A stretch of DNA of 44,794 nucleotides from an uncultured Lachnospiraceae bacterium (GTDB lineage: Bacteria > Bacillota > Clostridia > Lachnospirales > Lachnospiraceae). A model generated the notes under the pieces. That model ran no database searches and was not told where the DNA came from. It saw only the letters and a program-made list of their open reading frames with translations. The position numbers were made by a program, and so were the translations under genes. Shown piece after piece: positions 4,797 to 31,052 of this stretch (position 1 is its first letter; every line of letters starts with the position of its first letter). The stretch covers positions 1 through 44,794 of the forward strand of contig CACWQH010000038.1 of the NCBI GenBank assembly GCA_902762955.1. Reading direction: 5' to 3'.

Positions 4797-7700
4797 ATGA
4801 AGGATTCAAAAAGAAAAGTTGCAAGACCAAGAAAGAGAGTGATAGCAATACTTCTGTCAGTACTTATGGTGCTGTCTATCATTATACCAAGTGGTGGAAG
4901 CGGTGTAAGGTATAATGCTTACGCTGAAGGGGAGGAGTCTGCCATTGGAGAGGGGGTAGACCTTAATTCAGAAGAAGGAGCTGCTGAGGAAAGTGTGACT
5001 TCAGAAGAAGGTGCTGAGAAATTAACTGCTGAGGAGGTGACTCCTTCGGAGGAAGGTGCAGATACTTCCGAAGAAGGCGAGGATAAGTATGCGGTAAATA
5101 TTCCGGCATCAACAGAAGAAATAACAGAAGCAGTGGTAGAAGAAAATCCTGTTGATGAAGATATTATAGATAATGAGCAGCTTTTAGGTGATGGTGGAAC
5201 TGTAACACGTTCACCTGAATTGATAAATTATGTATCTGATGCAGATGCCAAGACCGGCATTACATACGATTCAACCAACAATTCGTGGATCGGTGTAAAC
5301 CTTGACAATGAATATGAGTTTACGATTTATTTTACGGAGACTGATGTAAAGCAGTTTATAGAAGATGGGGCAAATATGACTTATACTATACCTAATGGTA
5401 TAGTTGCCAATAATATTGCAAGTACATATATAGACCTTATTTATAAGCAAAGCGGCAGCGATGAAACCGTTAAGGTATCAAATAATCCGTTTAGCGTACA
5501 AAATGGTGTTATTACCTTTAATTTTAATACAAGTGATTCTAACTTTGAAACATTAAAAAATTCGGAAGATGCCCAGTTTTACTTGACTTTTAAGGGCAAA
5601 TTTGATGGTTCGACTCAAAATATCAACTTTGGTAACGGCGTTACAAGAACAATCGATGCATCACTTTCAAGCGATGTGTCGGTTGACAAATGGAGCACCG
5701 GTTCTATAACCTCTGAGGCTGATAGTAAGCTTAGCTATACTGTCAGAGTAAAATCCTCCGGTTATAGCACGGGTATTACATTAAATGATGGTATTGATAA
5801 CAATGGCTTTGAAATAGAAAATGTTAATTATAAAATATATGACAGCTACGGAAAGGAAGTAACCACAGGGGTTACTGTAGAAGGTACCGGTCTTTCTACT
5901 GATAAAAATAGCATAAACTATACTATAGATAAGCTTCCTAACGGATATTATGTAGACTTTACATATGATGTTAAGCTTAAAAACAGTACGGATATTTCAA
6001 CAGTTGATACAGACGGCGATGGCAAGGTAGCTATCAAAAATACCGCCAATGTTACAAGTACGGAGGACACCAATTCATATAACAATTCCAAAACAGTTAC
6101 AAATAATATTACATACAGTTCAATCCAAAGCAAAACTGCAGAAGTTGTAGATGCAAATGAGGGTATAGTAAATTGGACCATTAAATTAAACCCTGAAATG
6201 ATGGTTTCGTTAAAGGGTAAGACCTTGACGGATGTACTTAATGATTCAAATACTACAATTAGCGATAATCAAGATTTTAATAGTAATATAACTATAACGG
6301 CTTATGATAATGCTTCGGGAACAGAAACCGCCAAAGCAACTTATACTGTAACTAAACCGACAGGTAAAGATTTTTCATATACCTTTACTGATACTGACCC
6401 ATACTATTACATAATTACATATCAGACAAAGGCTACTGATATGAATTCACAGATTTCTGATATGAAATTAAAAAACACCGCTACGTTTTTAGGAAATGAT
6501 AAAACAGCGGAAGCGACTATAGGTATAGGCGATAAGCTTGCTATAAATAAGACCGCAACAGAGGTAACGTCTGATTATGTTACATGGACTGTAACGGTTG
6601 ATGTACCTGCTAAGGGACTAGATAGTCTTGTACTTACTGATGCCGGGCCTAATTCATCAAATTATTATTATGATGATATAGATACATCTTCTATAAATGT
6701 AACCGGTTTAACAGGAAGTGAAGGTTATACAGCATCTTATTCGACTACAACAAGGGGAAGCGATAATGAGACGGTTACGTCAGGCTTTACACTTGTATTT
6801 CATAAATCTGACGAAACAACCGGTCTTGATGAAACGACTGCCAGCAGACAGATTTTTCTTACATATAAAACCAAGGTTGACCAAAAATGGCTTGATGCTG
6901 CGGCACAGGAAAGCTGGCGTAAAACTCATACCAATAATATAAGCGCTGTAGCAAACGATATAAGAATTGACACCTCTGCTGATGCAACTCCGTCTAAGGT
7001 TGAAATTGATAAATCCTTAGGCAGTAAGGGCACTATAACTATAGGGGATAAGAAGTATCCATATTATGAATTTAAGGTAAGGATATCGCCTGTTGACAGT
7101 GATACAGTTACTATTACAGATACATTACCGGAAGGATTTAAAATATACGAGGAAACTCCGGAAACAGATTGGTCGAGGAAGACAAAAGCCTACGGAAGTA
7201 AGTCGGTTTGGAGTCCGGAAACCCAAATTGGTTATTATAGTAGTACTGTTACCGATAGTGGTGTTACATATTCAACTAGTGGTAATAATGTAACCTTTAC
7301 AGTAGATATTAAAAAAGATTCAGAAGATAAATATTATGATTACTACTGGCTTGACTATTATATTATAGTAAAAGATGAATCATCATTAACAAGCTTAACC
7401 CAGACAGCTTTGGATAACCAAGGTAAGAGTGTGCTTACAAATACAGCAAAATATAAGGGTACGAGCGCATCCATCAATTTTGATTTTGAGCCTGATAAAG
7501 CTGACAGCAGCGTAGTTTCAAAGGAACTTATCAGTGAAGAAAATGGTGTTGCTACATATAAGATAGATGTAAACCCTGAAAAATTAAGATTAAATTCAGG
7601 AGAAAATATAACGCTTACAGATACCTTTACTAATTTGAGTATTGACTACTCAACTATCAAGATAACGGCAATTGACCCTGCAAATGCTGAGGTGGTTTCC

Positions 7701-10700
7701 TGTGATGTTCGTAGTAACGTTATGACAGTTGTATTGAAGGATGCAACGCATTATACAATTGAGTATAAGTCAAATGTCTTGTCTAACGGAACCTATACAA
7801 ACGTGGTTGAAGTAGCAGGCTTTACGGCTACTAAGTCAGCCAGCTATTCTTCTTCGGGTGGTGGTGATTACGGAAATTATCTGTCTATCAATATATTTAA
7901 GCAGGAGTACGGAAACTCGCTTAACAAGCTTGAAGGTGTAGAATTCCAGTTGTTTGTTGATGTTAATGGAGTTGCCACTCCGGTTACAGATGAGAGAGGA
8001 AGAATTGTAACCGCAACTACTGATGAAAATGGTAAAGCAACCTTTCAGGGAAGCTCATCCTCAGGCTGGAAGATTGAAAAGGGAAAGAAATATTATGTTA
8101 AAGAGTTAAATCCACCGGAAGGATATCTTGGAATAGATGGATATTATAACTTTACCATAGCGGATGTTTCGGATTGGAATCACTATGTATATAAGACCGG
8201 TGAAACCATGCGTGTGGATAACAATAAGATAGACCTTAAGGTTACCAAGACATTGGACAATGCTCCGGATAATCTTGATTTAAGTAAAATTAAGTTTACT
8301 GTTGTCGTCAGTGAGGGTGAAGGTTCTTCTGCAAGTACTCATACATACAATAAAACCCTTGCAGAAATCAAGACCGGTGCTGATACAGGTTCAAAATGGT
8401 ACAGCTATGATGCAGCTACAAAGACGTATACATGGTATATTACAGACCTTACAACCGGAAGCAGTGCAACAGTAACTGAAACAATTGACTCTGCTGAAGC
8501 ATCAGAGCAGCCAAGCTCAATTACCTATAGTATATTGGAGGATGGCGCTGCAACTGTTTCAGAACAGGCATATACAAGTGGCAGTGCTGTAAATGTTTCA
8601 GGTCTTGCGGAGGATTCTATCAAGACTGTAGCATTTACAAACAGCTATGCAGGTGCTGTGGATGTTACTCCTGTTGCATATAAAAAGCTTGACAACAAAA
8701 CCAAGGGAACAGGTGCAAGCCAGACCTATCCGTTGGATGGACTTTCATTTGATTTTGCCATATATGAAATTCCGGATAATTTTTATACAACATTGGGCGA
8801 TAGTCATAGGAGTGCAATAAGTGAAGATAATTTAAAAAATGCATCAAATTGGAAAGCAAATTCATTATCTACAGCAACAGCCTCGGACGAAACAGATGCT
8901 AAGGCAACCTTTGATAAGATAAACTATAACTTTGAAAGTGGAACGACCTTCCCGCAATATTACTACTATAAGATAGTAGAAAATTCTTCGGGCTACAGTA
9001 AGATAACAAATGATACCGGTTATGTTATCATGTCTGTTGTCATAAATAAAGATGCCCAGTCAGGAGTGCTTTCGAAGACTGTAACATACACCAAGTACAA
9101 AGCGGACGGTACAAAAGAGGTTGCAGAAACCTCTGAACCAAAGGCTGTAGCATTTAACAACAGCACTGCCGAAACAACCCTTTCACTTAAGGCAAACAAG
9201 CTCTTGACTGAAAACGGAAGAAGCGTAACACCGGGAAATGACTTTAGCTTTAAGCTTGAAGCTGTAGAATTAAATGGTGTGAAGGATACTCAGACCAATG
9301 CAAATCAGCCGGCGGTTATAAATAATGGCAGCAATGTTACATTTACTAATCTTACTTATAAGGCTTCTGATATAAGCACTGATAGCTCAAAGCCTACTGT
9401 TTACAGATATAGAATCAGCGAAAATGATGCACCTGAAGGCTACAGTAAGGATACAAATTATTACTATGTAGATGTGACAGTTATTCGTGATACATCTACA
9501 GGAGGAGTAAAGACCGAGACAAAGATTACAAAATATAGTGTTTCCGGTGCGGTAATAGAAGACAATGTCGCTACATCAAGGATAAGCTTTACCAATACTA
9601 AGTCTGCACGTACAGGCAGCGTTTCACTTGCTATCTCAAAGAAGGTTGATGGTAGTGCGGATGGTGTAAAAGGAAGCACATACGGTAAATTTGATTTTTA
9701 CTGCGGATACGTAGGAGAACAGTCCAATACTCTTAAGCCTGCTGAGATAACATCTTCTACTGCATGGACTAATCCTAAAACAGGCGTATGGTCAGCAGAT
9801 ACTAATATAATTACCTTCCCTGCAATAGAGTATAGTACAGCAAATGGTACAAATACTGAGCTTGGTACGGGTAAACACATTTATAGAATCTATGAAGGTG
9901 GTAATGGATATAACGGAATAAATAATTCACGTGATTTCTATATCGTGGTTGTTTCCGTTACTGACCCGGGAAGTGGAACAGCACTTACGACATCAGTAGA
10001 CAGTGTATATAAGTATGCATATAATACTTCTACTGGAACGTATGATACTGCTCAATCTGTAAGTGGAACAGGTTCATCAAATGTAATATTTGATAATACA
10101 AGCAATCAGGTAAGTGTTCCTATAACTGCAGAAAAGACTATAACCGGGGGAGACCACTCTAAGGCAGGCTTTAAATTTACTATAAATGCGATAGAAAATA
10201 GCACGAGTGGATATAAGCTTTATAAAAATGCAAGTGGAACTGCTTATACCGAAACTGTTACTTCGGATGCGGATGGTAAAATAACATTTTCTAATCTTGT
10301 ATTTACTAAGGCATCGGATGCAGGACGTTATCAGTTTGAAATAAAAGAGACTGCAGGTTCAGATACTACAATTACCTATGATGAGAGTGTTTATAGGGTT
10401 ACCGTAAATGTAACGTATAACGATACAACAAAGACTTTGGCAGCATCAATAGAAACAGTTGAAAAAAAGAATAGTTCAGGTGCTACTTATTATACAGTAC
10501 AAAATAAGTCAGTTTCTTTTGAAAATAAGCTTGTGCCACAAAAAGGCTCCATAACCTTTACTGCACAAAAGAAGCTTAAAAAGGCCGGAGAAACAGAAGC
10601 AGGAACAGATATTACCGGTACAGATGGTAATCTTAAAGAATTTTCATTTAAGCTTGAACAGGTTGATGCAAGCGGTACTACAGTATCATCCGGAGTGAAT

Positions 10701-13700
10701 CAGACTAAGCAAAATACTATAAATGGAATAATTAATTTTGATGCAATAACTTATGATAATAGTATGGTTACTAATTCTCCATATTATTATAAGATTAGTG
10801 AAGTGGCTTCGACATCTAATGATGGTTATAAATATTCTGATGCTGTATATTATGTAAAGGTTGATTTAAGTGTTGATACTTCAACTAATCGTGTTGTTGC
10901 TACTCCGACTTACTATAATGATGTAAGTATGAGTAACGTAATTACAGCCGACAATTTAGTATTTATAAATGAAGAACAAAAGGCAACTCTTAAGCTTGAA
11001 GCACATAAGGAGCTTGTTGGTGCAAGTATATCCGATTATTATGGAAGCGATAACAACGGCTTTGAGTTTACAGCAACCAAAGACGGAAAAATTTATAAGG
11101 GATATAATGATAATTCCGGAAATGTTGTAATTGATATAAATGAGGTGTTTGGAATTGCAGACGTTATTAAGACGACTACAGCAGTAAATCATGCTCCTTA
11201 TGAATATGTTATTAAAGAAACAGCGAAAGATGGGTTTATATGTGATACAAATGAGTATGTTGCAAAAGTAACATTTAACTTTACTTCAAATGGAATTGAA
11301 CCAACGATAACATATTATAAGAGCACAGATTTAAACAATTCCGTATCGGAAAGTGATGTTAAATTTATAAATACCAAGGAAGATACGCAGGAGATTACGA
11401 TTACTGCTTTAAAGACATTTGGTGATCCGGCTGTTGAACCGGGTGCAAACAGAATCTTCAGTTTTGGTTTATATAAAGGCGATGATACTACACCTGTTCA
11501 GATAAAGCAAAATGATGAACATGGTAATATAATATTTGATAAAATTGTATATGATCAAAATGACCTCGGTTTAGAAGATACAAAAACATATGTTTATAAG
11601 GTTAAGGAAATTGTGCCTTCTCCACGTCCTCTTCCGGGATATAAATATGACACGACAGTATATACAATAAATGTTACATTAACAAGAAATAATACTACCG
11701 GAAAAATAGATATTACGCATAACATAATAAAGAGCGGTAGCTCAGATTCACAAAGTGGAACAAATATTATTGGTAGAGATTCCTCAGACAATGAATTTAT
11801 ACAGTTTAATAATGTTTATGAAGGAAAAACAGATTGGCCTCTTTCAGTAAGAAAAGTATTATCAGGTAATGAGGATGTTAATGAGTCGTTTAAATTCGAA
11901 CTGTACAGATGTACAGGGGATGATTTCGATACAAATGGAATTACACCGATAATTGTTAATTCTGATAATACCGGATATGCAGTATTTAAACCGGAGGATA
12001 TTACAATTACAACCGGATCAACTAACTATTTTGTGCTTAAAGAAGTTAATACCGGTGATCAGCTTATTTCTTATTCGACAAGAGTTTACAAACTAATAGT
12101 AACTGCTGATTCTGAAGGAAACGTAACTGTTAGAGATTCGGATTATACAAACATTATTTACGATGAAGCACGTGTTACATTTACCAATTCTATAGAAGTT
12201 AAGGTCAAGAAAACCAATGCGGATGGAACAGTAGCATTAACAGGTGCTGAACTTCAGGTGAAAAATGGTAATGCAGTTGTAAATACAAAGAATGGCAACC
12301 AAACAACAGATGGAAATACCGACAATGTTTATTCAGGTATAACTGTAGGACAGGAGTATACATTGGTTGAAAATAAAGCCCCTGTTGGATATGCGATAGC
12401 AGACCCGGTTAAGTTTAAGGTTGTATATGATTCAACAAACCAAAAGTATAAACTTCAGGTTAATTATGGAAACGGATATGTTGATGTTACAGGCACAGGT
12501 GATGCTGCAGTTACTGTTGTTATGAAGGATACTTCAAATAAGCTTATCATCAACAAGAAGATATCAGATACTACCTACCTTGCGGGTGCAACACTTCAGG
12601 TTAAGGATGCTTCAGGTGCTACATTAGGAACTGCATGGACTACTGATACAAATGGTACTGACAATCAGAACCACAGCATTGACTTAAGTACACTTACTCC
12701 GAATAAGTGGTATACATTAGAAGAGACATCTGCTCCTTTTGGATATAAGATTGCAACACCCGTACAGTTCATGATTGATTCTGATAACAAAGTGTGGACT
12801 AAGAAGCAGGGTGAAGCTGACACAGCAAAGATTGAACTTACCGCTGTAGAAGGCAAGTATACACTTACCATGTTTGATGAACCATTGGAGCTTACGATTA
12901 CCAAGTTAAATAAAGCTACAGATGATAAGCTTCCGGGAGCTGTATTCTCTATATATGCTAAAGACGGAAGTGGACTTATACAGTCAGGTATGGAAGTGGA
13001 TTCAGTTGGAACGCTTAAGTTAAATGTTCTTAGTCTTGGACTTGTAGCAGATAAGGAGTATATACTTGAAGAAACAACTGCTCCTGAGGGATTTGAAATT
13101 ATAAATCCGATTACATTTAAGATTACAAATGATAATACTCTTGTTGTAAATGGTGAAAACCAGACCGGTATGGAGATAAAGGTATATAATAAGAAAGAGG
13201 GAACAATATATATCAGTAAGGTTGATCCTTCTAATCCGGGCGTTGAGCTTAGAGGTGCTTTGCTTGTTGTAAGTCAGGATGGAACTGAAAAATATAGCTT
13301 TACTTCAACTGCAAATGCTTATGAAATCAGAACAGGTTCATTGGAAAAGAACAAGGTATATATCTTAAAGGAAATTGATGCTCCAAAAGATGTAAATGGA
13401 GTTCCTACACATTATCTTGCGGCTGAGATAAAGTTCTATATAGATAACGATAGTGAGCTTTATGTACAAAAAGAAGGAGAAGCAGATTTCTCACATAGCT
13501 CCGACGGAAAGATTGTTATGGAAGATAAGGCAAGAGATGTTGTCAAGATTAGTAAGGTTGACCTTGTAACGAGTGATGAGCTGCCGGGCGCAAAGCTTAA
13601 GATAACAGATGAAAATGGCAGACCGGTTTATGAAAAGACTGTTGATGAGCATGGAAATCTGATTACTACAACCAACAAGCTTGAGCATACAACAAATGGC

Positions 13701-15695
13701 AGAAAGTGGGAGATTGACTACTCGACATTTGAACTTGACACACCTTATGTGCTTACTGAGATAACTGCACCGGATGGTTATGAGGTTGCAGAAGATATAA
13801 CCTTTAAGATCGTCAATGAGGGTGGAGATAATGTAATTAAGATTAAGCAGGCTGATGGTTCATGGGTAACAAATACCAACATGACCGTAGTAATGCAGGA
13901 TGCTCCGATGAATTATGTTTCATTTATTAAGCTTGATAAGTCAAGCGGACAGACTCTTGCAGGAGCAGGGCTTACTATCTACGAAGATAACGGAGATGTG
14001 GCTTATAGCTTTACTACTACAGCCAATGCAACTCGATTCAGGGTTGATGATTTTAGTGTAAATGAAGAGTATACATTAAAAGAGACTACTGTACCGGAAG
14101 GCTTCTACGAGGCTGATGAAGTGGTATTTAGAGTAAGCTTTGTTGAGACTGCTAACGGCAGAATACGTAAGCTTTTTGTAAGAGATACAGACGGAACATT
14201 TAAGGTTAGAGAAACCGGTCAGATAATTGTTGAAGATGAACGAGTTTACAAGGTTAAGATTTCTAAGGTTGATTTAACTTCTGAGGAAGAGGTACCGGGT
14301 GCTCACATTCAGATTATCGATGAAAACGGCAGTGTGGTAACCGAGTGGGATTCAACCGATGAACCTAAGGAGATTGAAGGCTTACGTCCAAATGTAACAT
14401 ATACTCTTAGAGAAACAGTTGCTCCTTTAGGTTATAAGATTACAACAGATACGACATTTGCGCTTAAGTCTGACGCAACAATTGATTATGATAAGACTAC
14501 AACAGCTATATCGAGTGAAGGAGTGCTTCTTGTAAAGGATGATATAACAAGTCTTAACTTTACTAAGTATGGTCTTGTAAATGAATCCTGCGCGCCTGAT
14601 CCGGCAGCTTATGCACCGCTTGAGGGTGTTGAGTTTGAAGCATACTCAATTGATGAGGACGGCAATGTATCGGATGCTCCTGTCGCAACGGCTAAGTCAA
14701 GTAAAAATGGTATCGTTATATTTACTAAGCTTGCAAAGGGTAAATATCAGATACGCGAATCAAAGAGTGTAGATGCATTTAAGATATGTGAGGATTATTT
14801 CTACGCAACAGTTGATGATAATAATTTTGCAGGACTTACCGACAAGGATGGCAATAAGATCGAAGGTAACAGAATAGTTGATGACCAGTATAGAACAGAT
14901 ATCGTATTTACTAAGGTAAGTGAAAAGGATAAGTCAAAGAAGCTTGCCGGTTCAACTTACGGACTTTATAGGAAAAACGACTCTGCTGAAGAGACTCTTG
15001 TAGCAACAGCGGTATCAGATAAGGATGGAGTAGTAACCTTTAAGGGTGTAATTACAGGTATTAATTATGTCATAAGAGAGCTTGAATCACCGGAAGGCTA
15101 CTATGTATCTGAAAATCCTATCGAGATGAGCTTTAAGGTTGATGGTGAGGATGTAGTTAGAGCTACATTGAAGGATGGAAGCGGAACGATTGTTCTTGGA
15201 ACAAATGGTGAGATAACCTGGCTTGAACCTTCTGTAGTAGTTAACTTCCTTAAGGTTGATGGAGACAATAATCCTCTTCCTGGAGCTACACTTGCTGTAC
15301 TTGATATGAATGGTGCTCCTGTAAAGGATGCTGATGGAAAAGAAATCAAATGGGTTTCAACAACTACTGCATATGAGGTTGCTGATGTATTTGAAGATGG
15401 AGTAAGTTATCAGTTAGTTGAGTTAGCGGCACCTGAGGGATATGATATTGCTGAACCAATCGTATTTGAAATACCTGATGACAAGGTTGGTACAGGCGAA
15501 AATAAGGTGATTTCCGTAACTATGATAGACAGACTTACTACAACAGTTACTCCACCTGAAAAGACCACACCTCCATCAGTTAAGACAGGTGATACGACAC
15601 CGATTAAGCCGGTAGCAGCTATGATGTTCATATCACTTGCAGGTATTGTTTATCTTCTTATATTCAGAAGAAGACATAAGAAGATGTTCAAGTAA
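4797..15695 (+). CDS. Giant sortase-anchored SpaA/FctA surface adhesin
   Basis: 3632-residue cell-wall protein. A basic signal peptide with a hydrophobic core (residues 15-30) ends at a likely AYA/E cleavage site after residue 43. An acidic SEEGA-type repeat segment follows (about 44-120). Residues about 140-1010 are adhesin-like beta domains (several with an NKTATEVTSDYVTW-like start). One SpaA/Cna-B-like domain lies near 1021, about eight FctA-like pilin isopeptide domains between about 1284 and 2460, and ten tandem SpaA-type domains between about 2465 and 3560, each ending in a Y-x-L-x-E-x-x-A-P-x-G-Y/F motif. The C-terminus has a proline-rich stretch, the sorting motif SVKTG (3594-3598), a hydrophobic helix and a basic tail. 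The Lys and Glu positions suggest intramolecular isopeptide bonds. Probably an adhesin or stalk; no sortase gene is in the window, so anchoring would use a distant sortase. The ligand is unknown. Confidence 0.93.
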   Translation: MKDSKRKVARPRKRVIAILLSVLMVLSIIIPSGGSGVRYNAYAEGEESAIGEGVDLNSEEGAAEESVTSEEGAEKLTAEEVTPSEEGADTSEEGEDKYAVNIPASTEEITEAVVEENPVDEDIIDNEQLLGDGGTVTRSPELINYVSDADAKTGITYDSTNNSWIGVNLDNEYEFTIYFTETDVKQFIEDGANMTYTIPNGIVANNIASTYIDLIYKQSGSDETVKVSNNPFSVQNGVITFNFNTSDSNFETLKNSEDAQFYLTFKGKFDGSTQNINFGNGVTRTIDASLSSDVSVDKWSTGSITSEADSKLSYTVRVKSSGYSTGITLNDGIDNNGFEIENVNYKIYDSYGKEVTTGVTVEGTGLSTDKNSINYTIDKLPNGYYVDFTYDVKLKNSTDISTVDTDGDGKVAIKNTANVTSTEDTNSYNNSKTVTNNITYSSIQSKTAEVVDANEGIVNWTIKLNPEMMVSLKGKTLTDVLNDSNTTISDNQDFNSNITITAYDNASGTETAKATYTVTKPTGKDFSYTFTDTDPYYYIITYQTKATDMNSQISDMKLKNTATFLGNDKTAEATIGIGDKLAINKTATEVTSDYVTWTVTVDVPAKGLDSLVLTDAGPNSSNYYYDDIDTSSINVTGLTGSEGYTASYSTTTRGSDNETVTSGFTLVFHKSDETTGLDETTASRQIFLTYKTKVDQKWLDAAAQESWRKTHTNNISAVANDIRIDTSADATPSKVEIDKSLGSKGTITIGDKKYPYYEFKVRISPVDSDTVTITDTLPEGFKIYEETPETDWSRKTKAYGSKSVWSPETQIGYYSSTVTDSGVTYSTSGNNVTFTVDIKKDSEDKYYDYYWLDYYIIVKDESSLTSLTQTALDNQGKSVLTNTAKYKGTSASINFDFEPDKADSSVVSKELISEENGVATYKIDVNPEKLRLNSGENITLTDTFTNLSIDYSTIKITAIDPANAEVVSCDVRSNVMTVVLKDATHYTIEYKSNVLSNGTYTNVVEVAGFTATKSASYSSSGGGDYGNYLSINIFKQEYGNSLNKLEGVEFQLFVDVNGVATPVTDERGRIVTATTDENGKATFQGSSSSGWKIEKGKKYYVKELNPPEGYLGIDGYYNFTIADVSDWNHYVYKTGETMRVDNNKIDLKVTKTLDNAPDNLDLSKIKFTVVVSEGEGSSASTHTYNKTLAEIKTGADTGSKWYSYDAATKTYTWYITDLTTGSSATVTETIDSAEASEQPSSITYSILEDGAATVSEQAYTSGSAVNVSGLAEDSIKTVAFTNSYAGAVDVTPVAYKKLDNKTKGTGASQTYPLDGLSFDFAIYEIPDNFYTTLGDSHRSAISEDNLKNASNWKANSLSTATASDETDAKATFDKINYNFESGTTFPQYYYYKIVENSSGYSKITNDTGYVIMSVVINKDAQSGVLSKTVTYTKYKADGTKEVAETSEPKAVAFNNSTAETTLSLKANKLLTENGRSVTPGNDFSFKLEAVELNGVKDTQTNANQPAVINNGSNVTFTNLTYKASDISTDSSKPTVYRYRISENDAPEGYSKDTNYYYVDVTVIRDTSTGGVKTETKITKYSVSGAVIEDNVATSRISFTNTKSARTGSVSLAISKKVDGSADGVKGSTYGKFDFYCGYVGEQSNTLKPAEITSSTAWTNPKTGVWSADTNIITFPAIEYSTANGTNTELGTGKHIYRIYEGGNGYNGINNSRDFYIVVVSVTDPGSGTALTTSVDSVYKYAYNTSTGTYDTAQSVSGTGSSNVIFDNTSNQVSVPITAEKTITGGDHSKAGFKFTINAIENSTSGYKLYKNASGTAYTETVTSDADGKITFSNLVFTKASDAGRYQFEIKETAGSDTTITYDESVYRVTVNVTYNDTTKTLAASIETVEKKNSSGATYYTVQNKSVSFENKLVPQKGSITFTAQKKLKKAGETEAGTDITGTDGNLKEFSFKLEQVDASGTTVSSGVNQTKQNTINGIINFDAITYDNSMVTNSPYYYKISEVASTSNDGYKYSDAVYYVKVDLSVDTSTNRVVATPTYYNDVSMSNVITADNLVFINEEQKATLKLEAHKELVGASISDYYGSDNNGFEFTATKDGKIYKGYNDNSGNVVIDINEVFGIADVIKTTTAVNHAPYEYVIKETAKDGFICDTNEYVAKVTFNFTSNGIEPTITYYKSTDLNNSVSESDVKFINTKEDTQEITITALKTFGDPAVEPGANRIFSFGLYKGDDTTPVQIKQNDEHGNIIFDKIVYDQNDLGLEDTKTYVYKVKEIVPSPRPLPGYKYDTTVYTINVTLTRNNTTGKIDITHNIIKSGSSDSQSGTNIIGRDSSDNEFIQFNNVYEGKTDWPLSVRKVLSGNEDVNESFKFELYRCTGDDFDTNGITPIIVNSDNTGYAVFKPEDITITTGSTNYFVLKEVNTGDQLISYSTRVYKLIVTADSEGNVTVRDSDYTNIIYDEARVTFTNSIEVKVKKTNADGTVALTGAELQVKNGNAVVNTKNGNQTTDGNTDNVYSGITVGQEYTLVENKAPVGYAIADPVKFKVVYDSTNQKYKLQVNYGNGYVDVTGTGDAAVTVVMKDTSNKLIINKKISDTTYLAGATLQVKDASGATLGTAWTTDTNGTDNQNHSIDLSTLTPNKWYTLEETSAPFGYKIATPVQFMIDSDNKVWTKKQGEADTAKIELTAVEGKYTLTMFDEPLELTITKLNKATDDKLPGAVFSIYAKDGSGLIQSGMEVDSVGTLKLNVLSLGLVADKEYILEETTAPEGFEIINPITFKITNDNTLVVNGENQTGMEIKVYNKKEGTIYISKVDPSNPGVELRGALLVVSQDGTEKYSFTSTANAYEIRTGSLEKNKVYILKEIDAPKDVNGVPTHYLAAEIKFYIDNDSELYVQKEGEADFSHSSDGKIVMEDKARDVVKISKVDLVTSDELPGAKLKITDENGRPVYEKTVDEHGNLITTTNKLEHTTNGRKWEIDYSTFELDTPYVLTEITAPDGYEVAEDITFKIVNEGGDNVIKIKQADGSWVTNTNMTVVMQDAPMNYVSFIKLDKSSGQTLAGAGLTIYEDNGDVAYSFTTTANATRFRVDDFSVNEEYTLKETTVPEGFYEADEVVFRVSFVETANGRIRKLFVRDTDGTFKVRETGQIIVEDERVYKVKISKVDLTSEEEVPGAHIQIIDENGSVVTEWDSTDEPKEIEGLRPNVTYTLRETVAPLGYKITTDTTFALKSDATIDYDKTTTAISSEGVLLVKDDITSLNFTKYGLVNESCAPDPAAYAPLEGVEFEAYSIDEDGNVSDAPVATAKSSKNGIVIFTKLAKGKYQIRESKSVDAFKICEDYFYATVDDNNFAGLTDKDGNKIEGNRIVDDQYRTDIVFTKVSEKDKSKKLAGSTYGLYRKNDSAEETLVATAVSDKDGVVTFKGVITGINYVIRELESPEGYYVSENPIEMSFKVDGEDVVRATLKDGSGTIVLGTNGEITWLEPSVVVNFLKVDGDNNPLPGATLAVLDMNGAPVKDADGKEIKWVSTTTAYEVADVFEDGVSYQLVELAAPEGYDIAEPIVFEIPDDKVGTGENKVISVTMIDRLTTTVTPPEKTTPPSVKTGDTTPIKPVAAMMFISLAGIVYLLIFRRRHKKMFK

Positions 15696-17179: not shown

Positions 17180-17373
17180 TGGCAGAATTTGAAAAGAAAG
17201 TTAGAGAGATACTTAAAGATAATAACTGCTGGTTCGTAAGGCATGGAAAAGGGGATCATGATATTTGGTATAGCTCGATTACAAATAAGCATTTTCCTGT
17301 AGATTCAAAAATTAAATCTCGACACACTGCTAATGGTATTATGAAACAAGCAGGAATAGATTATCATTTTTGA
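17179..17373 (+). CDS. hicA: HicA-family mRNA interferase toxin
   Basis: 64-residue double-stranded-RNA-binding-fold protein. The segment WFVRHGKGDHDIWYS contains the G-x-G-x-H motif with the catalytic His of HicA, followed by a short beta strand (HFPVDSKI) and the final helix HTANGIMKQAGI typical of the family. HicA toxins cleave mRNA and are held inactive by the upstream partner. The gene overlaps the upstream one by a single base, and its last ten bases overlap the 3' end of the convergent LysR gene. The catalytic residue appears intact, so the pair may be functional. Confidence 0.78.
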   Translation: MAEFEKKVREILKDNNCWFVRHGKGDHDIWYSSITNKHFPVDSKIKSRHTANGIMKQAGIDYHF

Positions 17374-18356
17374 TAATCGTTTGAACAATAACTAATAAAT
17401 TTACTAAGAGCTGCATGTTTTATCTTTCCATTTGGATAGATGAAACCTACGGTTCTTTTTTTGACCTCGTTTTCAAGTGGCAGTTCTATAATCTGACCAC
17501 TTTCCAGATAATCGGTCGCAAATTCACGTACTATACTTGCGACTCCCATACCGATGGCAGCGAAATCTATGAGAAGATCCATGTTATTGATCTCAAGTAC
17601 CTGATTTGGATATATACATTCCTCAGCCAGATATCTGTCTATATGAGTTCGGGTTATATTGTTAGGTTCTAACAGCATAAGATTTGATTTTTCAAGTATT
17701 TCCTTTATGGAAAGCTTAAAATCACTCTTGTTTTCTTTATCGTTTATAAATGATGTAAGGTTACCTGCAAAAAAGTATGGACTTTCAACCACCTCAGACT
17801 CATCCTTTTCTCTTAGATGAAGATTGTCTATATAGTTGTCCGATGCTACAAATATATCATGTATGTCCTGAAGTTTCTTATATTCGTATCCTTTTGGTAT
17901 ATCCGTTTCGCAGATAAGACCTATATCAATTTTATCAGCCTGTAAGAGTTTGATAGTATTGATAGTAGAGTGACAGTCGATAATTACCTTGATATGAGGA
18001 TTTTCGGTTATAAATCCCTTGAGATAATCAAGGAGTATATGTTTGCATAGTGAGGTGCTGACGCCGATTCTCAGCTGACCGATACCAAGCTCGTTAATCT
18101 TTTTTATTTCGTCCTCGCCCTTTGTAATGCTCTCAAATGCAGAATCTATATGCTTATATAAAACCTCACCCTCTGATGTCAAGGCAACACCCTTTGAAGT
18201 TCTTTCAAATAATTTTACACCAAGTCCCTCCTCAAGCTTGGATAAGGACTTACTGATAGCAGGCTGACTGATAAAAAGCTTTTCCGCCGCCTTGCTGAGA
18301 CTCTTATACTTGGCAACATTATAAAAAACCTTGTAATTATTCAAATTATCGTACAT
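17364..18356 (-). CDS. LysR-family regulator, probably of the leu genes
   Basis: 330-residue LysR-type regulator. Residues 1-60 form the winged helix-turn-helix (NYKVFYNVAKYKSLSKAAEK, then QPAISKSLSKLEEGLGVKLF), and the remainder is the effector-binding periplasmic-protein-like domain. It is transcribed divergently from leuC with 527 bases between the starts. A perfect palindrome with T-N11-A spacing lies at 18510-18526, centred about 65 bases upstream of the predicted leuC transcription start, which is the standard LysR activator position. The target is therefore inferred to be leuCD, with 2-isopropylmalate a plausible but unproven ligand. Its 3' end overlaps hicA by ten bases, so antisense interference between the two is possible. 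Confidence 0.88.
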   Translation of the reverse strand: MYDNLNNYKVFYNVAKYKSLSKAAEKLFISQPAISKSLSKLEEGLGVKLFERTSKGVALTSEGEVLYKHIDSAFESITKGEDEIKKINELGIGQLRIGVSTSLCKHILLDYLKGFITENPHIKVIIDCHSTINTIKLLQADKIDIGLICETDIPKGYEYKKLQDIHDIFVASDNYIDNLHLREKDESEVVESPYFFAGNLTSFINDKENKSDFKLSIKEILEKSNLMLLEPNNITRTHIDRYLAEECIYPNQVLEINNMDLLIDFAAIGMGVASIVREFATDYLESGQIIELPLENEVKKRTVGFIYPNGKIKHAALSKFISYCSNDYQK

Positions 18357-18509
18357 AACAAAACCTCACAAATTATCAGATTATAAAAACAAAATAATAT
18401 ATCTACGTTAATCTATAAAAAACATTACCCCTAATTGGTTTCAGACATAAATATTTATTTGAATTAAGTATAAATCATATAACAGTATTTTATTATACAC
18501 TAATAAAGC

Positions 18510-18526
18510 TATAACTTCAAGTTATA
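18510..18526. promoter_or_regulatory. LysR-type operator (perfect 17-bp palindrome)
   Basis: TATAACTTCAAGTTATA is a perfect palindrome containing T-N11-A. It lies in the lysR-leuC divergent region, with its centre near 18518. Confidence 0.6.
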
Positions 18527-18546
18527 TCACCTATTAATAATATTCA

Positions 18547-18576
18547 TTATGAAAAAAAATCTCCTTATGTTACAAT
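18547..18576 (+). promoter_or_regulatory. Candidate leuC promoter
   Basis: A TACAAT -10 box lies at 18571-18576 with a poor -35 (TTATGA at 18547-18552, 18-base spacer), as expected for an activator-dependent promoter. It predicts a start near 18583 and a leader of about 300 bases that would contain the whole structured element. Confidence 0.45.
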
Positions 18577-18603
18577 AACAATCAGTTTACTGGCGGATTA
18601 ATT

Positions 18604-18841
18604 GGCGTGCCGTACAAAAACTTAAGTCTTAGTTGTACAGATAACAATGTATAAGCAGGTACTCTGAAGACACCGGTACTTAGCGATTTGTATGACGATT
18701 ATAATCAACTTTACGAAGTAAAGAGTTGATTATAATTGGCATACGAAGAGTTTAGTACCGCTGCGTCTGAGGGTAGCGGGAGCGTGCCTGCGATACATTG
18801 GTTATCTGTACAACTAAGTCAAGAAATTACATCGGCACGCC
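18604..18841 (+). promoter_or_regulatory. Structured leader element, copy 1 (leuC)
   Basis: Nested inverted repeats: GGCGTGCCG (18604-18612) with CGGCACGCC (18833-18841); a roughly 25-bp arm starting TTAGTTGTACAG with its complement ending CTGTACAACTAA; GCAGGTAC (18655-18662) with GTGCCTGC (18784-18791); AGAC (18668-18671) with GTCT (18765-18768); and CGGTACT (18674-18680) with AGTACCG (18754-18760). The terminal part is a long extra hairpin of about 60 bases. The core is shared with the purC leader. No T-run follows, so a simple terminator is unlikely. Not recognised as T-box, ykkC or another known riboswitch class. Confidence 0.8.
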
Positions 18842-18883
18842 CCACAAATTTCCGCTAAAAAGAATATTATGGAGGAAACCAAT

Positions 18884-20149
18884 ATGGGTATGACTATGAC
18901 ACAGAAAATTCTTGCAGCTCATGCAGGACTTGAAAGTGTAAGCGCAGGACAGCTCATTGAAGCAGATTTGGATTTGGTTTTGGCCAATGACGTCACAGCT
19001 CCTGTTGCAATTCACGAGATGGAGAAATTCAACAAAAAAGAAGTGTTCGACAAGGATAAGGTTGCTCTTGTTATGGACCACTTCACTCCTAATAAGGATA
19101 TCAAGAGTGCAGAGCATTGTAAATGCGTAAGAGAGTTTTCAAAGGACTATGATATTACAAACTTTTTTGATGTAGGTGCAATGGGAATCGAGCATGCATT
19201 ATTACCGGAAAAAGGTCTTATAGTGGCAGGTGAAACCTGTATAGGTGCTGATTCACATACATGTACATATGGTGCACTCGGTGCATTTTCAACAGGTGTT
19301 GGAAGTACTGACATGGCAGCCGGTATGGTTACCGGTAAGGCATGGTTTAAAGTACCTTCCGCAATCAAGTTTAATATAGTAGGAGAAAAGGCAAAATGGG
19401 TAAGCGGTAAGGATGTTATCCTTCACATTATCGGTATGATAGGTGTGGATGGTGCGTTGTATCGTTCCATGGAATTTGTCGGTGAGGGAATTAAGAATCT
19501 TACCATGGATGACAGATTTACCATAGCCAATATGGCTATAGAGGCAGGTGCCAAAAATGGTATCTTCCCTGTAGATGAACTCACAGAAGAATATATGAAG
19601 GAACACTCAACCAAGTCTTATACAAAGTATGAGGCTGATGCCGATGCAGAGTATGATGAGGAATATACAATTGATTTATCTACTCTTAAGCCTACCGTAG
19701 CATTTCCTCATCTTCCTGAAAATACAAAGACTATCGATGAGGTTGGCGATATAAAGATTGATCAGGTTGTAATAGGTTCCTGTACAAACGGCCGTATCTC
19801 TGATATGAGAATTGCAGCTGATATTATGAAGGGAAAGAAAGCCGCTGACGGAGTAAGAGTTATCGTTATTCCGGGAACTCAGGATGTATATCTTCAGATG
19901 TTAAATGAAGGCTTGACTGAAATATTTATAAAAGCAGGTGCTATAGTTTCAACACCTACCTGTGGTCCTTGCTTGGGAGGACATATGGGAGTTATGGCTG
20001 CCGGTGAGAAAGCAGTTTCAACAACCAATCGTAACTTTGTAGGCAGAATGGGACATGTGGATTCAGAGGTTTACCTTGCAAGCCCTGCCGTTGCTGCGGC
20101 ATCAGCTATAACAGGTAAGATAAGCTGTCCATGTGAGCTTGGATTATAG
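18884..20149 (+). CDS. leuC: 3-isopropylmalate dehydratase large subunit
   Basis: 421-residue aconitase-family subunit that, with LeuD, isomerises 2-isopropylmalate to 3-isopropylmalate in leucine synthesis. The iron-sulfur cluster ligands are visible in GSCTNGR (near residue 299) and TCGPC (near 359 and 362); the active-site segment [21 protein letters not shown] is also present. The length fits the short bacterial/archaeal-type LeuC. The ATG at 18884 has GGAGG eight bases upstream; an earlier ATG at 18869 overlaps that ribosome site and is rejected. It is followed by leuD after 19 bases. Confidence 0.95.
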
Positions 20150-20168
20150 GACAAAGGAGGTTATGAAA

Positions 20169-20657
20169 ATGAGAGCGTGTGGAACAGTTCATAAATACGG
20201 TGATAACGTAGACACAGACGTTATAATTCCTGCAAGATATCTTAATTCATCAGACCCTGCTGAATTAGCGAAAAATTGTATGGAAGATATAGATAAGGAT
20301 TTTGTAAAAAGAGTTAAGCCGGGCGACATCATGGTTGCCAACAAGAACTTTGGCTGTGGTTCTTCGAGAGAGCATGCACCGATAGCCATAAAGGCATCAG
20401 GCATAAGCTGCGTTATAGCCGAAACCTTTGCCAGAATCTTTTACAGAAATGCAATCAATATAGGACTTCCGATTATAGAATGTCCTGAGGCTGCCAAGGC
20501 AATCGAAGCCGGTGATACAGTGGAAATCGATTTTGATTCCGGTATGATATATGATAAGACAAAGGGTTTGGAATTTAAAGGACAGGCGTTTCCTCCGTTT
20601 ATGCAGGAGATTATAAAAAGCGGTGGCCTTATAGCAAGAATTAATGCTAAAAATTAA
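20169..20657 (+). CDS. leuD: 3-isopropylmalate dehydratase small subunit
   Basis: 162-residue swivel-domain partner of LeuC. Family motifs [28 protein letters not shown] and [16 protein letters not shown] are intact, and the length is standard for the short LeuD class. The start at 20169 sits eight bases after AAGGAGG (20154-20160); the ATG at 20163 is only two bases from it and is less likely. It forms a tight operon with leuC. No clear hairpin terminator follows, so transcription may run on through the structured element into purC. Confidence 0.95.
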
Positions 20658-20723
20658 TTTATAATTATTTAGTTTTTTATTGATTAATAACTCATAAAAA
20701 AAATTATTTAGTATTTATTTTAA

Positions 20724-20740
20724 CTGTTAATATTTAACAG
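20724..20740. promoter_or_regulatory. Palindromic operator candidate before purC
   Basis: CTGTTAATATTTAACAG is a perfect 7-3-7 inverted repeat directly abutting the structured purC leader element. It could be a repressor site or part of the promoter region; no convincing -35/-10 pair was found here. Confidence 0.35.
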
Positions 20741-20879
20741 GACTTGACAGAATAGAAATAATTCATAAGCAGGTACTTTGAACACGCCGGTACTTAACGA
20801 GCATGCGAGTTTAGTACCGTTGCGTGTGAGAGTAGCGAGAGCGTGCCTGCGATGAATTAATTTCTATTCTGGAAAGTCC
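20740..20879 (+). promoter_or_regulatory. Structured leader element, copy 2 (purC)
   Basis: GGACTT (20740-20745) pairs with AAGTCC (20874-20879); a roughly 20-bp arm (CAGAATAGAAAT...) pairs with ATTTCTATTCTG with a one-base bulge; GCAGGTAC (20769-20776) pairs with GTGCCTGC (20843-20850); ACACGC (20782-20787) with GCGTGT (20822-20827); CGGTACT (20788-20794) with AGTACCG (20813-20819). The core is near-identical to the leuC leader, while the outer arms are unrelated in sequence but equally complementary. The element ends 21 bases before the purC ATG. Confidence 0.8.
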
Positions 20880-20900
20880 GTAAAGAGAAAGGAAGAAAAA

Positions 20901-21770
20901 ATGAAAGAATTTAAACCGGTTAAGGAAGGTAAAGTAAGAGAGATATACGATAACGGCGACAATCTTATTATGGTAGCTACAGACAGAATAAGCTGCTTTG
21001 ACGTAATACTTAACAATGTCGTAACCAAAAAGGGTACAGTGCTTACCCAGATGTCAAAGCTCTGGTTTGACATGACAGAGGATATAATTCCAAACCATAT
21101 GATATCCGTAGATGTAAATGATATGCCGGAGTATTTCAGACAGCCACAGTTTGATGGCAATTCAATGATGTGTAAGAAGCTTGAAATGCTTCCTATCGAG
21201 TGTATCGTTCGTGGATATATAACAGGAAGCGGTTGGGAGAGCTACAAGAAGGATGGTACCGTATGTGGTATAAAGCTTCCTGACGGTCTTAAGGAGTCTG
21301 ATAAGCTTCCGGAACCTATATACACACCTTCCACAAAGGCTGAAATAGGTGAGCATGATGAAAACATTTCCTATGAGCAAAGCGTAGCACACCTCGAGAA
21401 ATACTTCCCGGGTAAAGGCGAGGAATATGCTTCAAAGCTTAGGGATTATACAATAGCACTTTACAAAAAATGTGCCGATTATGCACTTACCAAGGGCATA
21501 ATCATAGCGGATACAAAATTTGAATTCGGACTTGACGAAGATGGCAATATGGTTTTAGGTGATGAAATGCTTACCCCTGACAGCTCGAGATTCTGGCCGG
21601 CAGATGTATATGAGCCGGGACATTCCCAGCCATCCTTTGATAAGCAGTTCGCCCGTGACTGGTTAAAGAGCCATGAAGGCCACAACTGGACACTGCCACA
21701 GGACGTAGTTGATAAAACCATAGCAATCTACCTCGAAGGCTATGAGAAGCTTTCGGGTAAGAAGTTATAA
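20901..21770 (+). CDS. purC: SAICAR synthetase
   Basis: 289-residue phosphoribosylaminoimidazole-succinocarboxamide synthase, which joins aspartate to CAIR using ATP in purine synthesis. Recognised from the start KPVKEGKVREIYDNGDNL, the segment ATDRISCFDVILNN, the signature ECIVRGYITGSGW and the metal-binding D-E-M-L-T-P-D-S-S-R-F-W stretch. It resembles the longer yeast-like PurC form (about 290 residues) more than the roughly 240-residue Bacillus form. It is unusual to find it between leuD and leuB; its leader shares a structured element with leuC. The GAAAGGAAG ribosome site lies just before the start. Confidence 0.95.
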   Translation: MKEFKPVKEGKVREIYDNGDNLIMVATDRISCFDVILNNVVTKKGTVLTQMSKLWFDMTEDIIPNHMISVDVNDMPEYFRQPQFDGNSMMCKKLEMLPIECIVRGYITGSGWESYKKDGTVCGIKLPDGLKESDKLPEPIYTPSTKAEIGEHDENISYEQSVAHLEKYFPGKGEEYASKLRDYTIALYKKCADYALTKGIIIADTKFEFGLDEDGNMVLGDEMLTPDSSRFWPADVYEPGHSQPSFDKQFARDWLKSHEGHNWTLPQDVVDKTIAIYLEGYEKLSGKKL

Positions 21771-21776
21771 TAAATA

Positions 21777-22047
21777 AAGTATAAAAATCAAGATTTGTTA
21801 CCTGTTTAGGAAAAATTAAAGCAACAAAAAAGATAAAGCCGGTAACAAAAGCTATAAAAAACCAAGATTTGTTACCTGTTTAGGAAAAAACAAAGCAACA
21901 AAAAAGATAAAACCGGTAACAAAAGCTATAAAAAATCAAGATTTGTTACCTGTTTAGGGAAAATTAAAGCAACAAAAGAAGACAAGCCGGTAACAAAAAC
22001 TAAAAAAACCAAGATTTGTTACCTGTTTAGGGAAAAACAAATCAACA
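21777..22047 (+). repeat. 74-bp tandem repeats with internal dyads, leuB leader
   Basis: Four units begin at about 21777, 21851, 21925 and 21999. Each has TTGTTACC (at 21795, 21869, 21943 and 22016), and the first three also have GGTAACAA (21841, 21915, 21989). Each left half can pair with the right half of its own unit (loop about 37 bases) or with the right half of the preceding unit (loop about 18 bases), so alternative hairpins are possible. The fourth unit lacks the right half and leads into the leuB ribosome site. No promoter was recognised. Confidence 0.88.
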
Positions 22048-22067
22048 ACGTAAGAAAGGAAAAAAAC

Positions 22068-30734: not shown

Positions 30735-30746
30735 ATATGTGAGTTG

Positions 30747-31052
30747 GTCGGTTATATAGACTGTACTCCCAATATGATTATTATAAAACAGGTACTCGCA
30801 TAGCACGTTCGCACTCTTTGAAACATGTAAGAGTACTAAGTGCATAAATATGCTTTATTCTAATGCGTATCAATTATAAAAATGAAGAACACCACTCACT
30901 TTTGCATGTAATGCAAGTGCGTGGTGTTCTTCATTTTTCTTCTTGCTTCGCAAGAAGAAAGGGCATTTATTTACTAAGTGCTCACATGTTTCAAACGGCT
31001 ACGCTAAGCACCTGTTTTAATAATCATATCGGGAGTGCCCTATATAACCGAC
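30747..31052. repeat. About 306-bp imperfect palindrome after asd
   Basis: GTCGGTTATATAG at the left end pairs with CTATATAACCGAC at the right. AATATGATTATTAT with AATAATCATAT, AAAACAGGT with ACCTGTTTT, TTTGAAACATGT with ACATGTTTCAAA, and AATGAAGAACACCAC with GTGGTGTTCTTCATT follow inward. A separate small hairpin (CTTCTTGCTTCGCAAGAAG) sits on the right arm. The centre is near 30910. It fills the 448-base gap before the next gene, together with a short CACGCTTCGCGTG hairpin at 31052-31064. No convincing coding sequence is present. Confidence 0.85.

Follow-up and report, generated by a model that had tools for sequence, protein, structure and literature searches.

A branched RNA fold upstream of leuC and purC probably belongs to a MITE-like mobile element of Lachnospiraceae

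Why do the leaders of leuC and purC, in one contig of an uncultured Lachnospiraceae bacterium, carry the same elaborate hairpin? The window, by which we mean the whole 44,794-nucleotide stretch of DNA that was analysed, holds one copy upstream of each gene, and the original prediction read the pair as an unrecognised structured RNA that could regulate leucine and purine genes together. The comparisons presented here support the fold and argue against the shared regulation. Both hairpins probably derive from a mobile element of Lachnospiraceae that is non-autonomous, MITE-like and of the fold-back type.

Each copy forms one long hairpin (fold z-scores of -14.9 for leuC and -11.1 for purC against dinucleotide shuffles), and in alignment the copies show 88% identity over 52 nt in one half and 84% over 44 nt in the other. 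From the outside inward, the element consists of outer terminal arms, asymmetric linkers, variable arms, an AA/G bulge and stem P1, formed by GCAGGTAC and GTGCCTGC, which contains a U-G pair in all 17 own-genome copies aligned and in 34 of 111 copies family-wide. P1 is followed by a tandem G-A step, stem P2, stem P3, which includes another tandem G-A step as well as a U-U mismatch, and a tip that is either a short or a long hairpin. The outer terminal arms are clear in the leuC copy. A further stem, P4, is a two-base-pair hairpin with a GNRA tetraloop that sits 5′ of the 3′ strand of P1. Neither P4 nor a third copy in the window, which a model search of 115 kb detected at 40.5 bits (E 2e-10), had been part of the original prediction. 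The features are as follows, with the evidence in brackets.

18566-18576, + strand: leuC promoter, probable extended -10 (conserved whether or not a relative carries the element)
18589-18857, + strand: entire insertion in the leuC leader, about 269 bp (filled leuC leaders aligned with empty ones)
18591-18612, + strand: leuC copy, outer terminal arm, 5′ side, pairing in pieces with 18833-18856 (fold; the layout resembles that of the clade with terminal inverted repeats described below)
18628-18652, + strand: leuC copy, variable arm, 5′ side, pairing with 18793-18818 (copy alignment, fold)
18655-18791, + strand: leuC copy, conserved core (sequence match, fold, covariation)
18655-18662 with 18784-18791, + strand: leuC core, P1 (GCAGGTAC with GTGCCTGC)
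18668-18673 with 18763-18768, + strand: leuC core, P2
18674-18680 with 18754-18760, + strand: leuC core, P3 (CGGTACT with AGTACCG), enclosing a long tip hairpin
18778-18781, + strand: leuC core, GNRA loop GGGA of P4
18793-18818, + strand: leuC copy, variable arm, 3′ side (copy alignment, fold)
18833-18856, + strand: leuC copy, outer terminal arm, 3′ side (fold; alignment of filled and empty leaders)
20740-20766, + strand: purC copy, variable arm, 5′ side, pairing with 20852-20879 (copy alignment, fold)
20769-20850, + strand: purC copy, conserved core (sequence match, fold, covariation)
20769-20776 with 20843-20850, + strand: purC core, P1 (same strands as in leuC)
20782-20787 with 20822-20827, + strand: purC core, P2
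20788-20794 with 20813-20819, + strand: purC core, P3 (same strands as in leuC), enclosing a short tip
20837-20840, + strand: purC core, GNRA loop GAGA of P4
20852-20879, + strand: purC copy, variable arm, 3′ side (copy alignment, fold)
30793-31017, - strand: third copy, diverged, its tip holding a long hairpin insertion; complementary arms reach to about 30745-31050

The promoter assignment is based on sequence, and the putative -10 would place the element at the extreme 5′ end of the leuC mRNA. leuC seems to have a regulator of its own: the adjoining divergent ORF (17364-18356, 330 aa) has a start that we take to resemble that of a LysR-type regulator, and a palindrome, ATAACTTCAAGTTAT, lies at about 18510-18530 and is kept in many element-free relatives.

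What had been reported about the two copies was confirmed in detail. The core strands are present in both; G18669 stands opposite C18767 in leuC and C20783 opposite G20826 in purC; the change from T-A to C-G outside the core lies at the third arm pair beyond the AA bulge; the extra tip hairpin of the leuC copy is present; and arms that differ between the copies yet are each self-complementary appear in the copy alignment and in the folds. The covariation extends well beyond this pair. Across 17 own-genome copies, 98.9% of cells are paired and 11 of the 31 pairs change on both sides, compared with 4.2 +/- 1.2 in shuffles, none of which reached 11 in 500, and with 0-1 in slid controls. Double changes affect 28 of the 31 pairs in 69 distinct copies and again in 111 distinct copies from many genera, although fitting to the structure biases both of these alignments in its favour. 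In the larger alignment 92.8% of cells pair, and its 717 double-change cells compare with 197, a count this high being found in none of 500 shuffles. The tetraloop of P4 is GNRA in 108 of the 111 distinct sequences by alignment count (GAGA 52, GAAA 28, GCAA 13, GGGA 8, GGAA 5, GCGA 2), the three remaining loops being GAGT, AGGA and GATA, and its closing pairs change together in four of the 111.

The fold matches no class in Rfam 15, in line with the earlier claim. There were no hits at the gathering threshold in the whole window, two hits up to an E-value of 10 in 18400-20950, both outside the element, and one sub-threshold hit, away from the element, in 17 diverse loci. Nor did we recognise any description of this element in open-licence papers. 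Any claim of novelty rests on these two sources.

A structured RNA in two biosynthetic leaders invites a regulatory explanation, in which the hairpin is a riboswitch or a protein-binding RNA common to leuC, purC and other biosynthetic genes. The covariation of the fold agrees with this, as do several copies situated directly 5′ of amino-acid, purine, pyrimidine and folate genes. Searches of the own genome gave 22 matches with the RNA model, 29 aligned pieces with an 88-nt consensus and 10 places with an exact two-part pattern. Sense copies precede leuC, purC, argC, argJ, folD, pyrF, sufB, lepA, the GPR protease gene and a gene for a GlnA-like enzyme (below the family cut-off). Reversed copies adjoin ftsY, trpC, trpD, carA and a carbamoyltransferase gene (the last below the family cut-off). 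Three of 20 neighbour proteins scanned have no family (at L019, L015 and L023), two of them beside reversed copies. Sense copies do outnumber antisense ones: among 20 own-genome copies, both neighbours are co-directional with the element in 11 and opposite in six, two copies lie between divergent genes and one has no downstream ORF. The six reversed copies nevertheless speak against a leader function, as do neighbours such as lepA, ftsY, sufB and GPR, which have no common pathway. The same holds family-wide, where both neighbours run with the element in 118 and against it in 77 of 291 distinct elements (p 0.004; duplicates, copies less than 60 bp from a locus end and copies with fewer than 12 aligned arm columns excluded), and in G315, where 11 of 25 copies lie between convergent genes. 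For the own genome and G315, orientation was taken from a crude ORF caller. The riboswitch reading is disfavoured, since copies do not keep to the sense strand ahead of genes from any single pathway. One G315 subfamily (L218, L220, L223, L209 and other loci), often located between convergent genes, ends in GGGGCTGTAAAAA...TTTTTACAGCCCC, which by its sequence looks like a two-way terminator.

Comparison of the same sites among relatives is also difficult to reconcile with a leader function. The leuC leader is filled in G000 (the own genome), G019, G023, G004 and G013, holds a collapsed remnant in G024 and is empty in two close relatives, G022 and G015; the element was not seen in the other 23 leuC leaders (up to 330 bases each). 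The G023 copy has one arm pair altered on both sides relative to the window. Among 16 relatives, the purC leader is filled in eight, namely G019, G013, G023, G004 and G022 and, with another subtype, the more distant G006, G025 and G035, whose copies count in favour of a leader element. It contains a remnant in G024, is empty in G015, and showed no element in the other six. Three further sites near the window are polymorphic as well, being filled, empty, remnant or altered. Part of this variation is explained by loss through deletion. With empty or remnant sites in close relatives, unrelated neighbours and both orientations, the element is not a regulator specific to leuC and purC, and a regulatory role common to leucine and purine genes is not supported. 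In view also of the target duplications of a sister clade described next, a shared cis-regulatory leader is the least probable of the readings weighed here.

The sister clade comprises G010, G014, G021, G028, G034 and G036. Here the element has terminal inverted repeats of about 15 bp, and many copies carry the ends AGGYRATTGCGAAA. Target duplications with a score of at least 8 flank 21 of 55 such elements (up to three substitutions allowed per end, not hand-curated), compared with 0.6% of mispaired flanks, and are 9-14 bp long. The bounded elements come in several sizes. A spacing of 135-136 bp recurs among shorter derivatives in G014; the two that were read from end to end measure about 150 bp and retain the arms and the GNRA hairpin without P2 and P3. 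Element ends differ between clades, and the window's own species has only varying outer arms in place of the terminal repeats. In that species a 9-nt flank repeat occurs in one of 20 copies, no excess over the control of 5%; G026 and G315 likewise show no target duplications above control, and in G006 flank repeats of at least 10 nt occur in three of 25 copies against 0.7%. Mobility is thus established for one clade, and for the window's clade we infer it from site polymorphism.

The original prediction had set a MITE, with conserved arms and flanking duplications, against an RNA fold. The observation that it named as refuting does occur in the sister clade, with its conserved terminal repeats and target duplications; in the own species no duplications are detectable. 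The accompanying argument that a transposon copy would conserve its arms does not hold, as the arms vary yet stay complementary although the element is mobile. The leuC alignment of filled and empty sites gave no sign that the arms are copied from host flank on insertion.

It may be that the folded single strand of the core, and not ends recognised by a transposase, determines mobility, either as RNA that a trans-acting reverse transcriptase turns back into DNA, which would make the element a bacterial SINE, or as single-stranded DNA. The core with its GNRA loop is common to genera with different element ends, and this route would account for arms that have to stay paired. The variable length of the duplications also fits, as does the failure to find a parent transposon, sought as a pair of terminal repeats spaced 320-4000 bp and enclosing a long ORF, in 428 loci. 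A further point is the arrangement of neighbouring copies: in the loci collected, all 18 cases of two elements within 450 bp of each other are head-to-head, 5′ side towards 5′ side (L205, L189, which is the same pair as L093, L195 twice, L197, L202, L267, L268, L275, L284, L305, L314, L317, L327, L331, L346, L350 and L354). Among the 47 of 50 matches listed for G026, close pairs are head-to-head in nine of nine cases, six of which are shared with the 18; these pairs often combine two subtypes. Flanking gene order varies among head-to-head pairs. On the other side, terminal inverted repeats with duplications are the typical product of DNA transposases, and short copies without P2 and P3 have multiplied in G014 (two examined). 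The Y1 transposase domain (PF01797) is found in two of 14 carriers and one of four non-carriers, and its absence from 12 carriers, together with the presence of target duplications, also led us to reject mobilisation of the REPIN/RAYT or IS200/IS605 type. We consider single-strand mobility unlikely; should the core prove to be what drives movement, bacterial repeats would have a new route of spread.

The arms also bear on whether pairing matters in RNA or in DNA. If pairing exists in DNA only, a transition in one arm yields G-T and A-C mispairs equally. Arm mispairs are instead skewed, with a G-U:A-C ratio of 218:86 in 207 elements and 259:138 in 291. By neighbour direction the ratio is 114:40 where both genes run with the element, 64:54 where both run against it, 35:18 between convergent and 30:10 between divergent genes; stratified by genome set, the G-U skew differs between co-directional and opposite neighbours with p 0.005. 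It is 24:5 in G315, 29:14 in G006, 33:19 in G026 and 85:26 in the other genomes outside the named set, and is not significant in the own genome (4:4) or in the named-genome set (84:70). Core mispairs show no skew (59:48), in part owing to a C-A pair that recurs in place of one U-A pair. The arm skew fits pairing kept in the transcribed strand in part of the family, own-genome copies being without it, and strand-biased mutation could contribute to the G-U excess.

Could the hairpin be simply a palindrome in the DNA, without RNA function, in which template switching during replication is all that keeps arms and core complementary? The copies show double changes with few intermediates, the pattern that PMC8794818 describes for template switching, and the even mispair ratio of the own genome points the same way. 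Degenerate copies at L034, L023 and L024 have turned into perfect palindromes, which fits template switching. Such copying leaves unaccounted for the bulges and mismatches that are conserved, the adherence of an unpaired loop to GNRA, the invariant U-G pair of P1 in own-genome copies and the overall G-U excess, and we rate it as very unlikely to be the whole explanation. At L034 (G000:C34:24513-24564), the 5′ half is now the reverse complement of the 3′ half, making a near-perfect palindrome.

For the mobile element that we favour, a cut-and-paste transposase would act in trans on the element ends. A copy arriving in an operon spacer or leader would be transcribed and would fold on itself, and its pairing may be maintained by two processes together, selection on the RNA strand and template-switch copying from one arm to the other. 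Counting against this explanation are the want of target duplications above control in the own species, G026 and G315, the different ends of the clades, the failure to find a parent transposase in 428 loci and the uneven G-U skew. Tentatively, and with somewhat less than even confidence, we propose that the likeliest use of the core is one for the element itself: being compact and inert when folded, it would make the insertion tolerable in host transcripts, a reading we rate lower because the G-U skew is uneven across genome sets. Hundreds of copies with free arm sequence and kept pairing constitute a natural experiment for separating RNA-fold selection from template switching.

Among known systems, bacterial MITEs are the closest in general form: the element is short, multicopy and intergenic, has no ORF of note, and in one clade carries terminal repeats and duplications. 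It departs from them in its conserved branched RNA core across genera with different ends, in arms that vary yet remain complementary, and in that no parent transposon was found in the 428 loci. REPINs, as described in PMC3116915, are likewise intergenic mobile hairpins with conserved parts, variable compensating stretches and inverted pairs, but they measure 20-100 bp compared with about 140-270 bp here. The element further differs from them in that its variable part is the arm and its conserved part the inner core, and from the REPIN/RAYT system in the transposase and duplication findings given above. The MRSC-65-2 motif, classed as a likely selfish element in PMC11109978, shares the long stem, strong covariation and dozens of copies per genome. 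It is portrayed there as one long stem that contains a UYCCGG repeat and occurs in diverse phyla; by this description our element is set apart by its bulges, tandem G-A steps and branched GNRA hairpin and by its near restriction to one family.

Within the genus, matches occur in all 37 genomes searched, from one to at least 40 per genome, the highest load being 50 model matches in G026, and in none of 24 genomes of other families. With this distribution and no Rfam match, the element could be mistaken for a riboswitch wherever it is sited in a leader. Across the order 24 of 295 genomes, in 11 of 129 genera, were positive, as were 12 of 391 across the class, all in the same family; of 398 genomes across the phylum five were positive, four from this family and one from another class. 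Scans of more than 40 genomes ran under stricter filters, so that absences in them are not firm. The genome of the other class has nine copies, and the core and GNRA hairpin are present in the four that were folded. Among the matches listed, titles of named carriers are mostly Lachnospiraceae, Butyrivibrio and Clostridiales. Plasmids gave no copies, and viral contigs none by one exact pattern; in the phage set, the three hits to Erwinia phages are short and partial, and the element is present on two human fecal scaffolds, unannotated and deposited under the name Bacteriophage sp. (L405 215-333 at 65 bits, L406 2581-2705 at 35 bits). The scaffolds are possibly bacterial rather than phage DNA, and a phage or plasmid origin was rejected on these results.

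Several other features were noted. A variant of 312 nt in G004 (L233 10486-10797) keeps the arms and P1 unchanged around a different, long folded interior, and the leuC match in G026 (L125) has one in-frame TGA. Between purC and leuB, the window contains a 74-bp tandem repeat of 3.7 copies (21776-22048); G023 has a similar array there, and relatives have the hairpin element or an empty site. The window also holds an ORF of 3632 aa at 4797-15695.
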